From positions 25,936-89,935 of the forward strand of contig CAIUPP010000109.1 of the NCBI GenBank assembly GCA_903901045.1: a DNA stretch of 64,000 bases, read 5' to 3'. Shown one piece after another: positions 885-24,820 of this stretch (within the stretch, counting starts at the first letter, position 1; each line of letters starts with the position of its first letter). The translations under genes and the position numbers were made by a program. Source of the DNA: an uncultured Planctomycetota bacterium. GTDB taxonomy: Bacteria > Planctomycetota > Brocadiia > CAIUPP01. The notes under the pieces were generated by a model, which made no database searches, was not told where the DNA came from, and was given only the letters and a program-made list of their open reading frames with translations.

Positions 885-2459
885 ATGGCGAAAGTGCTTG
901 TGGCGGATGCGTTGTCCGACGTGGGCGTGGCGCTGCTGAAGGGCGCGGGGCTGGAGGTCGATGTCAATACCGGTCGCACCGAGGATGAGCTGGTGAAGCT
1001 CATCGGATCGTACGATGCGCTGGTGGTGCGCAGTGCGCCGAAGGTGACGGCGCGCATTATCGAGGCGGGGACACAACTCAAGGTGATCGGCCGCGCCGGC
1101 GTCGGCGTGGATAATGTGGATGTGGCGGCCGCGTCGCGTCGCGGGGTGATCGTGATGAACACGCCGCTGGGGAATGTGACCAGCGCGGCGGAACACGCCG
1201 TGGCGATGCTGATGGCCCTGGCGCGCAATATCCCCGGGGCGGACGCTTCCATGAAGGCGGGGAAGTGGGATAAGAAGAGCTTCACCGGCGTCGAGGTGAG
1301 CGAGAAGACGCTGGGGATCGTCGGTATGGGCAAGGTGGGGCAGATCGTCGCCAAGGCGGGGATCGGCCTGAATATGAAGGTGCTGGCGTACGACCCGTTC
1401 CTGCCGGAGCGGCGCGCGCGCGAGCTGGGCGTGGAGCCGGCCACGCTGGATGACGTGCTGGCCAAGAGCGATTTCATCACGATCCACACTCCGCTGACCG
1501 ACCAGACGCGCGGCCTCTTGAACGAGGCGGCGCTGGCGAAGATCAAGAAGGGGGCGCGGCTGGTGAATTGCGCGCGCGGCGGCATTGTGGACGAGGTGGC
1601 GCTGGTGAAGGCGCTGGAGGAAGGGCGTCTGGCCGGCGCGGCGGTGGACGTGTTCGGCACGGAGCCTCTCCCGGCGGACAGCCCGCTGCGTAAGGCGCCG
1701 CATCTGATCCTGACTCCGCACCTGGGCGCCAGCACCGAGGAGGCGCAGACCAAGGTGGCCGAGGCGATCGCGCAGCAGATCGTGGCGTACTTCAAGGAGG
1801 GGAAGATCCAGTACGCGGTGAACCTGAGCGTGACGCTGACGCGCGAGATGGAGCCGTTCGCCGAACTGGCGCGCGCGCTGGGCAAGCTGCTCTCGCAGAT
1901 GCTGCCGAATCCGCCGCAGAAGCTGGTCACCGCCGCCGAGGGGCGCATCGCCACGGAGGATACGCACGCCCTCTCCGTCTTCGCGCTCCAGGGGCTGCTG
2001 GCCAGCTGGCATGACCGGCTCAACGTGGTCAACGCGCCGCTGGTGGCGGAGGAGCGCGGCATTGCGATCGTCGAGCAGAAGGCCTTCGAGTCGCGCGATT
2101 ACGCGAACCTCGTGCGCCTGACCGTCGAGACCGCCAAGACCACGCACACGGTGGCCGGCACGGTCTTCGAGGGGCGCGAGGTGCGCATTACGGAGATCGA
2201 CGGTTTCAGCGTGGACCTGAAGCCGGAAGGGACGATGCTGGTGTTGTTCTACGCCGACCGCCCGGGCATGGTGGGCAAGTTCGGGACGATCCTGGGGGAT
2301 GCTAAGATCAACATCGCCGGGATGGATGTCGGGCGCAAGGAGAAGCGCGGCCGCGCTTGCATCGCGCTGTCGGTGGATGATCCGGTTCCGGCCGACGTGG
2401 TTGAAAAGATGCGGGCCTGCACGGGCACCGGCGAGACGTATCTTGTAAGCTTTGCGTGA
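885..2459 (+). CDS. serA: D-3-phosphoglycerate dehydrogenase
   Basis: SerA oxidises 3-phosphoglycerate to 3-phosphohydroxypyruvate with NAD+, the first step of serine synthesis, in the cytoplasm. The 524-residue product has the long-form architecture: substrate and NAD-binding domains (about 1-310), an intervening allosteric-type domain and a C-terminal ACT domain (about 450-524). Visible motifs are the Rossmann loop GMGKVGQI near residue 146, the signature NCARGGIVDE near 227 with the catalytic Arg region, and HLGAST with the catalytic His near 278. The ORF opens at 753, but I chose ATG 885. MAKVLVADAL is the normal family start, a GGAGG lies 8 nt upstream, and the predicted promoter sits inside the longer ORF. 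The ACT domain suggests serine feedback. Minus-strand ORFs across it are shadows. Confidence 0.97.
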   Translation: MAKVLVADALSDVGVALLKGAGLEVDVNTGRTEDELVKLIGSYDALVVRSAPKVTARIIEAGTQLKVIGRAGVGVDNVDVAAASRRGVIVMNTPLGNVTSAAEHAVAMLMALARNIPGADASMKAGKWDKKSFTGVEVSEKTLGIVGMGKVGQIVAKAGIGLNMKVLAYDPFLPERRARELGVEPATLDDVLAKSDFITIHTPLTDQTRGLLNEAALAKIKKGARLVNCARGGIVDEVALVKALEEGRLAGAAVDVFGTEPLPADSPLRKAPHLILTPHLGASTEEAQTKVAEAIAQQIVAYFKEGKIQYAVNLSVTLTREMEPFAELARALGKLLSQMLPNPPQKLVTAAEGRIATEDTHALSVFALQGLLASWHDRLNVVNAPLVAEERGIAIVEQKAFESRDYANLVRLTVETAKTTHTVAGTVFEGREVRITEIDGFSVDLKPEGTMLVLFYADRPGMVGKFGTILGDAKINIAGMDVGRKEKRGRACIALSVDDPVPADVVEKMRACTGTGETYLVSFA

Positions 2460-2483
2460 CGGCGGGTGCGTGACAGGAAAGCT

Positions 2484-2564
2484 GCGAAAGTCGGGACACA
2501 ATACTTTCCAAAGGAAAGTTTTGTGTCCCGATTTTCGCAAGAAAGTATTGTGTCCCCACTTTCG
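2484..2564. repeat. REP-like palindrome, three arms
   Basis: Arm 1 (2484-2509) and arm 2 (2513-2538) form a 26-bp inverted repeat with 2 mismatches and a 3-nt loop. A third arm (2541-2564) is another inverted copy differing from arm 1 at one base. The core is GGGACACAATACTTTC. It lies 24 nt after the serA stop, so it could also act as a terminator or 3' stabiliser for serA, although no clean T-tract follows. Its form resembles REP elements mobilised by Y1-type transposases, but none is in the window. Confidence 0.7.
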
Positions 2565-2808
2565 TTCGACGCATCTATCGGCGGCTATTCGGGTTATCGA
2601 GAGCGCGCAGACTCGCTGAATTTTGGCAGTTGAAAATCGGCCCGAAAAAGATTTAGTATGAGGAAGTGAGATTTCGGCTCGCCGCCAGAACCAGCGGCGG
2701 GCAGGGGTCGCGCAGTCGTGCGCGACTGGCAAAAGGTCCGACCCCGCCGGGGGTGGTTCGCCGGCGGAACAGGTCGGGAGCCTTTTGAGAAAGGAGGTGG
2801 TCCAGCAG

Positions 2809-2841
2809 ATGTGCCATAGACCTAGGAGGCCGCTGACGTAA
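2809..2841 (+). CDS. Possible 10-codon mini-ORF (MCHRPRRPLT)
   Basis: An ATG lies 11 nt after the GGAGG of the very strong ribosome site at 2788-2803 and opens a 10-codon frame ending in TAA. It is too short for the ORF track. The peptide is basic and proline-rich with no domain. Whether it is translated, or the ribosome site serves another purpose such as binding 30S subunits, cannot be told from sequence. Confidence 0.35.
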   Translation: MCHRPRRPLT

Positions 2842-2881
2842 GCCGGCCGACGGGCCCGCGATGTCAGCGGCCCTCAAACTG

Positions 2882-2921
2882 ACGGCCCGCTCCTCGTGAT
2901 GAGGAGCGGGCCGTTTTGTTT
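2882..2921 (+). terminator. Intrinsic terminator
   Basis: A perfect 14-bp stem, ACGGCCCGCTCCTC / GAGGAGCGGGCCGT, with the loop GTGAT is followed directly by TTTGTTT. It ends the candidate small RNA on the plus strand. Confidence 0.85.
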
Positions 2922-2943
2922 AGTGATCAACGGAAACGGCCTT

Positions 2944-3028
2944 CCACAGATTACACAGATGAACACCGATTACAGAGACATGGCACAGCGCCGTCAACCT
3001 AATCGGTGTTCATCTGTGCAATCTGTGG
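2944..3028. repeat. Inverted dispersed repeat
   Basis: A 29-nt arm starting CCACAGATTACACAGATG (2944-2972) is repeated inverted at 3000-3028 with one mismatch. It lies between the small-RNA terminator and the icd stop codon and could form a hairpin for icd messages. The sequence belongs to the class of low-information repeats seen elsewhere in this window. Confidence 0.75.
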
Positions 3029-3042
3029 ACCGTCCGTTCGTT

Positions 3043-4245
3043 CTATGTTAACCGCTTTGCCACGGCCTCGATGAACCCCTCCGTCGTCACCCAGCTCTCG
3101 CGCGGCGGGTCGGCGGTTTCATGCGTCAGCCGCGCCAGGTCGCGCGTCATCGTCCCCTCGGTGATGGCGTCCAGCACCGCTTTCTCCAGCCGGTCGGCGA
3201 ACGCGCACAACTCCGGCGTGGCGTCCAGTTGCCCGCGTTTGCGCAGCGCGCCGCTCCAGGCGAAGATCGTCGCCACCGAATTCGTGCTCGTGGGCTTGCC
3301 GGCCACGTGATCCTTGTAATGGCGCGCCACGGTTCCGTGCGCCGCTTCGAACTCGTAGCAGCCGTCCGGGCTCACCAGTTCGCTGGTCATCATCCCCAGC
3401 GACCCGAACCCCGCCGCCACCATGTCGCTCTGGACGTCGCCATCGTAGTTCATCAGCGCCCAGATGATCCCTCCCTCGTGCTTCATCATCTGCGCCACGG
3501 CGTCGTCGATGAGCAGGTAGCGGTAGTGGATTCCCGCCTGCGCCATCTCGGCGGCGTGCGCGGCGGTTTCCTCCGCGAAGATGTTCTTGAAGAAAGTATG
3601 GTAGGTCTTGCTGATCGTGTCCTTGGAGGAGAACCACAGATCGATCTTCTGGTCCAGCGCGTAGCGGATGCAGGCGCGGGCGAAGGAGCGGACGGACTTC
3701 TCCGTGTTGTGAATTCCCATCACCACGCCGGGCCCCTTGAACTCGTGGATCGTCCGGCGTTCCGGCGCGCCGGAGGCGGGGGTGTACACCAGCTCCACCT
3801 TGCCGGGCCCGGGGACGGCCAACTCCGTGGCTTTGTAGATATCGCCGTAGGCGTGGCGGCCGATCACGATGGGCTTCTTCCAACTGCGCACCGCCACGGG
3901 GATCCCCTTCGCCAGGATCGGCTTGCGGAAGACGGTGCCATCCAGTTCGCTGCGGATCGTGCCGTTCGGGCTGACCCAGGCTTTCTTGAGGTGGTATTCC
4001 TGCACCTGCGCGATGCTGGGGGTGATGGTGGCGCACTTCACGCCCACCTTGTGGCGCTTGATCGCCAGCGCGGCGTCGTGCGTGACCTTGTCCTCGGTCT
4101 GGTCGCGGTGTCCCAGCCCCAGGTCGTAGTATTCCAGGGGGATATCCACGAAGGGGGCGATCAACTTTTCCTTCACCAGCTTCCAGATGACGCGCGTCAT
4201 CTGGTCGCCATCCATCTCGACCAGCGGGTTCTTTGCCTTGATCAT
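3043..4245 (-). CDS. icd: NADP-dependent isocitrate dehydrogenase, eukaryotic-like type
   Basis: The enzyme converts isocitrate to 2-oxoglutarate, CO2 and NADPH. 2-oxoglutarate is the carbon skeleton used by the glutamate synthase encoded further along. The 400-residue length and the start [17 protein letters not shown] match the homodimeric type related to mitochondrial and cytosolic IDH rather than the E. coli Icd type. ATITPS, SPNGTIR and the [15 protein letters not shown] metal-binding stretches are all present. The ORF opens at 4314, but [13 protein letters not shown] at 4245 is the family start, has a GGAGAG 7 nt upstream and lies downstream of the predicted promoter. Confidence 0.95.
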
Positions 4246-4587: not shown

Positions 4588-4673
4588 GCCGGAGTGGCGG
4601 AATGGCAGACGCACGGGTTTCAAAAACCCGCGGGCTTACGCCCATGGGGGTTCGACTCCCCCCTCCGGCACCA
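4588..4673 (+). tRNA. tRNA-Leu (anticodon CAA)
   Basis: The 7-bp acceptor stem GCCGGAG/CTCCGGC is intact with discriminator A and an encoded CCA. The anticodon stem CGGGT/ACCCG encloses the loop TTCAAAA, giving the anticodon CAA, which reads UUG. The long variable arm (class II) and the GGTTCGACTCC T-arm confirm tRNA-Leu. Confidence 0.97.
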
Positions 4674-24455: not shown

Positions 24456-24820
24456 GGGGGCGATAGGATTCGACCGGGCAGATTGAGGTGGAAGTGGCGT
24501 GCCGAGGTTGTCAGGCGGCCTCGTTAAACACCTGGCAAAAACAACATAAGTGCCGACACACACTACTCTCTCGCAGCTTAATTGACTGCGACGCTCGTCT
24601 GGTTCAGCCTGCGGGACCGGAACGGGCGACCACAGCAGGCTGGTCTCGACCCTCGTTGCCTGGCGGGGAAGAGGCGAGAGTGTCAGTTGGGCTCGGGTCC
24701 AAAAGGAGTCCTGTCCACCGGAAGCCTGAGGATCTAGAAAAAATAAAAGATGGACTATGCACGTAGAGGCTTCCACTGAAATGCTTCGGGACGGGGGTTC
24801 GATTCCCCCCGCCTCCACCA
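24456..24820 (+). ncRNA. ssrA: tmRNA
   Basis: tmRNA rescues stalled ribosomes and adds a degradation tag. The 5' end GGGGGCGATAGGATTCGAC and the 3' end GGGTTCGATTCCCCCCGCCTCCACCA form the tRNA-like acceptor and T-arm, with 7 pairs and an encoded CCA. The tag frame at 24534-24581 reads GKNNISADTHYSLAA and then TAA. It begins with the GGC AAA resume context seen in some bacteria and ends in LAA as expected for ClpXP recognition. Pseudoknot-forming stems follow the tag. The length of 365 nt is usual. ORF 24488-24766 is spurious. Confidence 0.96.

Follow-up and report, generated by a model that had tools for sequence, protein, structure and literature searches.

A phylum-wide, stand-alone RNA of Planctomycetota with an extended Shine-Dalgarno sequence and a mini-ORF, probably operated by ribosomes

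The described systems closest in plan to the RNA reported here are two Rfam families, RF01867 CC2171 of the Alphaproteobacteria and RF02471 Ms_IGR-5 of the Actinobacteria, both listed as "sRNAs" without a stated function. CC2171, a Caulobacter sRNA, stands alone, ends in a terminator and carries GAAAGGAGGTGATCC directly 5' of an open reading frame (ORF) of 14-26 codons. Ms_IGR-5 combines a GGAAGGAGGTGGTCC-like Shine-Dalgarno sequence with a mini-ORF, a stop codon in a hairpin arm and a big terminator. A stand-alone RNA that also bears a short ORF is known from SgrS, SR1 and Pos19, dual-function sRNAs whose ORFs encode conserved peptides and whose RNAs base-pair with mRNAs. 6S RNA, for its part, is a promoter mimic that binds RNA polymerase. 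In the Planctomycetota, the use of Shine-Dalgarno sequences is weak, as reported. Pairing past the classical core has been described for extended Shine-Dalgarno sites of Staphylococcus aureus (PMC13009471), and Ms_IGR-5 overlaps a transcript reported in M. smegmatis (PMC10454040). The RNA presented below comes from an uncultured planctomycete and lies in a window, meaning the whole stretch of 64,000 nt of DNA that was analysed, for which CC2171 and Ms_IGR-5 are the only Rfam leads. It resembles SgrS, SR1 and Pos19 in general make-up but differs from them in that its peptide is not conserved and its clearest pairing partner is 16S rRNA; the S. aureus sites belong to ordinary mRNAs with a few extra pairs, whereas this RNA is stand-alone and structured.

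The RNA is sited between serA (888-2459, plus strand) and icd (3043-4245, minus strand), and Table 1 presents its parts. Transcription is predicted to start near position 2666, giving an RNA of about 256 nt, and the predicted block folds at a z score of -9.2 relative to shuffles. A preliminary description made from the letters of the window had placed the RNA at 2788-2921; the element begins further upstream, with a promoter and three hairpins, H1 to H3. The 10-codon ORF and the terminator of that description stand, its 10-bp hairpin is present but refined to the 11-bp lower stem of H4, and its statement that no gene follows on the same strand agrees with the position of icd and with the next annotatable plus-strand gene, a tRNA-Leu at 4588. 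In G001, a genome from another genus of the same family, TTGCGC-17-TATCCT occurs at the position equivalent to that of the window promoter. The H1 loop GAACCA is complementary to UGGUUC of the H3 loop, and both segments are identical in G001; a kissing pair between the two loops is possible, with no covariation there to judge it by. Several repeats lie in this part of the window. Between serA and the promoter (2483-2564), nested inverted and direct repeats are arranged around GGGACACAATACTTTC, with 27-nt arms that are 93% complementary plus a third copy, resembling a palindromic repeat element. Just past the terminator (2943-3029) is a 30-nt inverted repeat, TCCACAGATTACACAGATGAACACCGATTA, with arms 97% complementary, and the intergenic region before serA (420-830) is crowded with CGCAAAGACGCAAAGGCGCAAAG-type repeats in both orientations.

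Table 1. Parts of the RNA locus, in window coordinates, with the basis of each assignment
Feature	Position	Strand	Basis
Putative sigma-70-type promoter, TTGAAA-18-TAGTAT	2630..2659	+	Consensus scan, 9/12 matches; 1 found vs 0.2 expected
H1 hairpin	2677..2702	+	Fold
H2 hairpin	2705..2727	+	Fold; G-C to A-U on both sides in G001
H3 hairpin, AAAAGG-CCGAC...GUCGG-CCUUUU, immediately 5' of the Shine-Dalgarno sequence	2731..2786	+	Strong covariation, 64 members (helices 1, 2)
Extended Shine-Dalgarno sequence, complement of 16S rRNA 3' tail, 16-19 nt	2788..2806	+	Duplex energies, run lengths, phylum members
Mini-ORF MCHRPRRPLT*, ATG...TAA (stop 2839-2841)	2809..2841	+	Same peptide in G001; ORF of 10-18 codons in 66/69 members
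H4 hairpin, 11-bp lower stem	2828..2872	+	Covariation, interior motif, stop register, alignment-free test
Intrinsic terminator, 16 pairs then T-rich tail (bounds also given as 2881-2917)	2881..2921	+	Terminator scan

The preliminary description had also drawn attention to a 16-base complement to the 3' tail of 16S rRNA, and the duplex calculations bear it out. By computation, AGAAAGGAGGTGGTCC at 2788-2803 of the plus strand pairs without interruption, and with one G-U, with the tail GGAUCACCUCCUUUCU, giving 16 bp at -29.9 kcal/mol; the pairing extends to 19 bp and -37.2 kcal/mol if AGC joins GCU of helix 45, against -11.1 kcal/mol for an ordinary AAGGAGG site in the same comparison. Since a search of the window's own assembly found no 16S gene, the tail was borrowed from other genomes of the class, and the assumed tail is supported by AGAAAGGAGGTGATCCAGCCGC being 16S antisense in four other genomes of that class. 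The exact site is unique in the 4.77 Mb genome, where a search allowing two mismatches added four places, all of them two mismatches away. For 31 longer ORFs in the window, the longest Shine-Dalgarno run is 5-9, compared with 19 at the mini-ORF. Together, the genome-wide search and the run-length comparison rule out a chance origin of the complement. A 16S fragment or antisense gene is ruled out as well, as the likeness stops at CCAGC, whereas the true 16S antisense of the class goes on with CCGCAGG. Runs of 12-19 nt are found in 68 of the 69 located members from the phylum; this set includes L162, whose Shine-Dalgarno sequence was misplaced by the script and whose true site was seen in the fetched locus. 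In the window, 11 nt separate GGAGG from ATG; this is more than the usual optimum and counts against a reading in which ribosomes operate the RNA.

Conservation of the block, which the preliminary description had named as a check, extends well outside the strain. In G001, the block is kept at 81% identity among unrelated neighbours. A covariance model (R1) built from the window and G001 led to more members in other families, some of them confirmed independently by pattern search, and a second model (R2) was built from nine members. At E<=0.01, R2 matched 83 genomes out of the 392 sampled; these fall in 64 of 267 genera across the phylum. Nearly all of the 65 loci inspected from the covariance searches are real, most of the weakest included. 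The 69-member set used for counting excludes L140, L172, L202, L222, L227 and L185-L189; its members are related, so that the counts given here are not independent events, yet they cover many families. Within the window's class, the inspected matches placed the RNA only in two genomes of its family, the others being 16S antisense or coding sequence; by R2 it is absent or undetected elsewhere in the class, which counts against the explanation preferred below. At gathering threshold, Rfam 15 gave no match over 2450-3060, its sole hits in the rest of the window being tmRNA and tRNA. A literature search covering papers outside subscription found none describing the plan of an extended Shine-Dalgarno sequence with a mini-ORF, or its function. 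This is a real, phylum-wide structured RNA family without an Rfam entry.

The preliminary description had pointed to compensatory base changes in the hairpins as a check, and such changes are present in both alignments. Among nine members, changes on both sides occur in 24 of 25 pairs and 90.3% of cells pair (62.3% when shuffled), while among 64 aligned members 86.6% of cells pair (55.9% when shuffled) with 443 both-sided changes against 140, figures that are biased in favour of the structure because the alignments were fitted to it. Slid controls of the 64-member alignment drop to 32-50% paired. A test that uses no alignment pointed to the same H4 helix: in 30 of 54 distinct members, the 8-mer that begins 11 nt 5' of the stop codon has a full pairing partner further downstream, compared with 8 after shuffling, and the same test gave no pairing signal at other positions. 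Compensatory change thus maintains the helices of H3 and H4 across the family defined by R2. The interior of H4 carries the motif G[AG]CGG[GA] in 48 of 54 members, against 11% (GACGGG at 2849-2854 in the window). The conserved GACGGG is complementary to positions 1402-1407 of 16S rRNA (CCCGUC). A pairing there was set aside, given that a chance match of 6 nt is to be expected in an rRNA of 1.5 kb and that GACGGA takes the place of the motif in some members.

Turning to the surroundings of the RNA, a mini-ORF followed by a hairpin and a terminator has the anatomy of a leader-peptide attenuator, which would act in cis on a neighbouring gene. In the window, however, icd lies beyond the terminator on the other strand, and across the 69-member set no conserved same-strand gene lies directly downstream, the next gene being on the same strand in 23 members and on the opposite strand in 25. 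The alphaproteobacterial analogue behaves likewise, with 52 same-strand and 57 opposite-strand genes among the matches listed. Neighbour orientation rules out a cis-leader for practical purposes, and we regard such a role as very improbable. An automatic scan, which lies outside the covariance models, detected terminators in 52 of the 69 members; with the strand counts, these bear out the stand-alone RNA of the preliminary description. Other identities were considered and rejected. The RNA is not tmRNA, for which there is a separate gene at 24456-24820 (the tag encoded there is ADTHYSLAA). A mobile element is ruled out by the single genomic copy and by searches that found no plasmid match and, for the window type, no viral match. 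Matches to microRNA families are hairpin artefacts.

The mini-ORF is retained as a unit. An ORF of 10-18 codons follows the Shine-Dalgarno sequence in all but three of the 69 members, compared with 18.5% in the null, and the 66 ORFs start with ATG (33) or GTG (33) and stop with TAG (31), TAA (24) or TGA (11). In the window, the stop codon starts 11 nt into the 5' arm of H4 (ATG at 2809, stop at 2839, H4 start at 2828). Across the family defined by R2, the start likewise follows the Shine-Dalgarno sequence and the stop falls 11 nt (45/64) or 12 nt (11/64) into this arm, 56 of 64 together, with 0-2 members at neighbouring registers. All 45 members with register 11 have an open start in frame, at 20, 23, 26, 29, 32 or 35 nt.

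The retention of start, frame and stop would also be seen in a conventional mRNA that encodes a conserved micropeptide (10-15 residues) and has hairpins for stability. The peptides share a rough pattern, with basic residues near the end and then often S, T or A, and form groups such as RRWLST, KGLHA and RRGGSA; their C-terminal residue is skewed to T, A, R and S. G001 and the window encode the identical peptide, their ORFs differing at just three third positions, one of which turns TAA into TAG. The same peptide pattern, however, is what the 5' arm of H4 would impose, and codon changes between close pairs show no synonymous excess, at 17 of 62 or 0.27 against 0.27 expected in a small sample of 20 pairs; the alphaproteobacterial analogue gives 0.25 against 0.28. 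As the test is small and RNA constraints overlap the ORF, weak selection on the peptide may go unseen, but a micropeptide gene is on these grounds an unlikely explanation. The ORF is selected as a translatable unit, through its start, frame and stop register, and its product apparently is not. This signature is unusual: an ORF constant in start, frame and stop register and variable in product.

A different possibility is that the long duplex passively traps initiating 30S subunits, with the ORF incidental. The duplex of 16-19 bp at about -30 kcal/mol would suit such a decoy, as would the start of H4 about 20-29 nt past the start codon, close to where the front of an initiating ribosome is expected to be. 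A decoy has no need, however, of an in-frame stop at a fixed register of H4 with the frame kept over spacings of 20-35 nt, and runs in some members are only 12-13; we consider it distinctly improbable. Because the ORF is kept translatable and its peptide shows no sign of purifying selection, a pure peptide mRNA and a passive 30S trap without any translation both become less likely. Of the two candidates in the preliminary description, the regulatory RNA that binds ribosomes is favoured here, with the twist of a kept, translatable ORF, and the mRNA encoding a very short peptide loses ground.

The explanation that we prefer, and hold to be probable, is a stand-alone, structured RNA operated by ribosomes, its function being inferred from sequence comparison. 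With the peptide apparently free of purifying selection and downstream genes equally often on either strand, the RNA is not a leader and is probably not a peptide gene. Conservation covers its shape, start and stop and not its peptide, so that it probably acts through the engagement of ribosomes and not through a protein product. The RNA is kept able to pair with the full 16S tail, and ribosomes would load on it preferentially. A loaded ribosome would then translate the few codons, open H4 and terminate inside it, so that ribosome occupancy or availability would set the state of H4 and of its G[AG]CGG[GA] interior. The RNA may in this way have its effect in trans: it could buffer or sense free 30S subunits, or the segment of H4 uncovered by the ribosome could be the active part. 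Its likely role is that of a trans-acting RNA with an activity that depends on free ribosomes or is directed at them.

How this RNA relates to CC2171 and Ms_IGR-5 can be judged from their plans and from their scores. The phylum RNA follows the CC2171 plan of GAAAGGAGGUGAUCC and then a short ORF, stand-alone and with a terminator; its stop codons are interchangeable, as in CC2171, and selection at the peptide level is apparently lacking in both. Scanning genome contigs gave at least 120 loci, almost all alphaproteobacterial, with GAAAGGAGGTG[AG]TCC and then a short ORF. Among the matches listed, some alphaproteobacterial loci exceed the CC2171 threshold, the ORFs have 14-26 codons in 115 of 119 cases (22% expected), synonymous changes show no peptide-level selection, and the complement of the locus's own Shine-Dalgarno end occurs inside the ORF in 52 of 120, against 27 by permutation. 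Such an internal mimic of the 16S tail, matching the RNA's own Shine-Dalgarno sequence, is carried by many members of the CC2171 type, but visual inspection of the phylum members revealed none, and the CC2171 stems also differ, with the start region pairing with a late GACAATG element.

A few loci stand apart. L019, L077 and L088 and the viral contigs L230, L231 and L236 hold a CC2171-like variant with a near-constant peptide, VSHSKRCHLAG.AR or VSYSKRCHLAGIAR, in whose ORF CACCTC is complementary to its own Shine-Dalgarno sequence; some copies are on contigs classed as viral. L072, from a metagenome-assembled genome labelled Candidatus Kuenenia stuttgartiensis, is a copy of the alphaproteobacterial type and probably reflects binning contamination. 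In L050, L082 and L095 (Azospirillum), an extended Shine-Dalgarno sequence and an MSHGA start lead into a protein of 57-59 residues with a signal-like N-terminus, and there is no mini-ORF.

The shared plan of an extended Shine-Dalgarno sequence, a mini-ORF and a terminator in a stand-alone RNA might mean that the phylum RNA, CC2171 and Ms_IGR-5 descend from a common ancestor, one ancient RNA class in three phyla. A Nocardia record has Ms_IGR-5 at 142.7 bits to its own family, with the same plan around the mini-ORF MDSSRTREVAVR, and this copy and member L140 both carry GAGGTGGCTGTCCGC at the same place. Scores nevertheless stay under the gathering thresholds, the window reaching 27.8 of 75 bits for CC2171 (three other members 37.2, 31.6 and 31.2) and 18.4 of 45 bits for Ms_IGR-5. 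R2, moreover, misses the Nocardia copy and reaches the alphaproteobacterial loci mainly through the Shine-Dalgarno sequence, and convergence could produce the same plan. Common ancestry is accordingly a tentative suggestion that we lean somewhat against.

A broader generalisation can be phrased, speculative and on present comparisons unlikely: that at least three bacterial phyla possess a class of stand-alone RNA which mimics a super-strong start site of translation and serves as a regulator or sensor of the free-ribosome pool, its disposable mini-ORF providing the release or read-out step, making it the translational counterpart of 6S RNA. The likeness to 6S RNA concerns the working idea of a stand-alone RNA that mimics the substrate of a core machine and claims no membership; unlike 6S RNA, the phylum RNA would imitate an initiation site. 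For the Planctomycetota, the finding adds a widespread structured RNA family that is missing from Rfam. It also offers a testable reading for CC2171 and Ms_IGR-5, long-listed sRNAs of tractable laboratory bacteria. If ribosome engagement is indeed its function, the RNA would be a regulator with the ribosome itself as its target, and this in a phylum for which weak use of Shine-Dalgarno sequences is reported.
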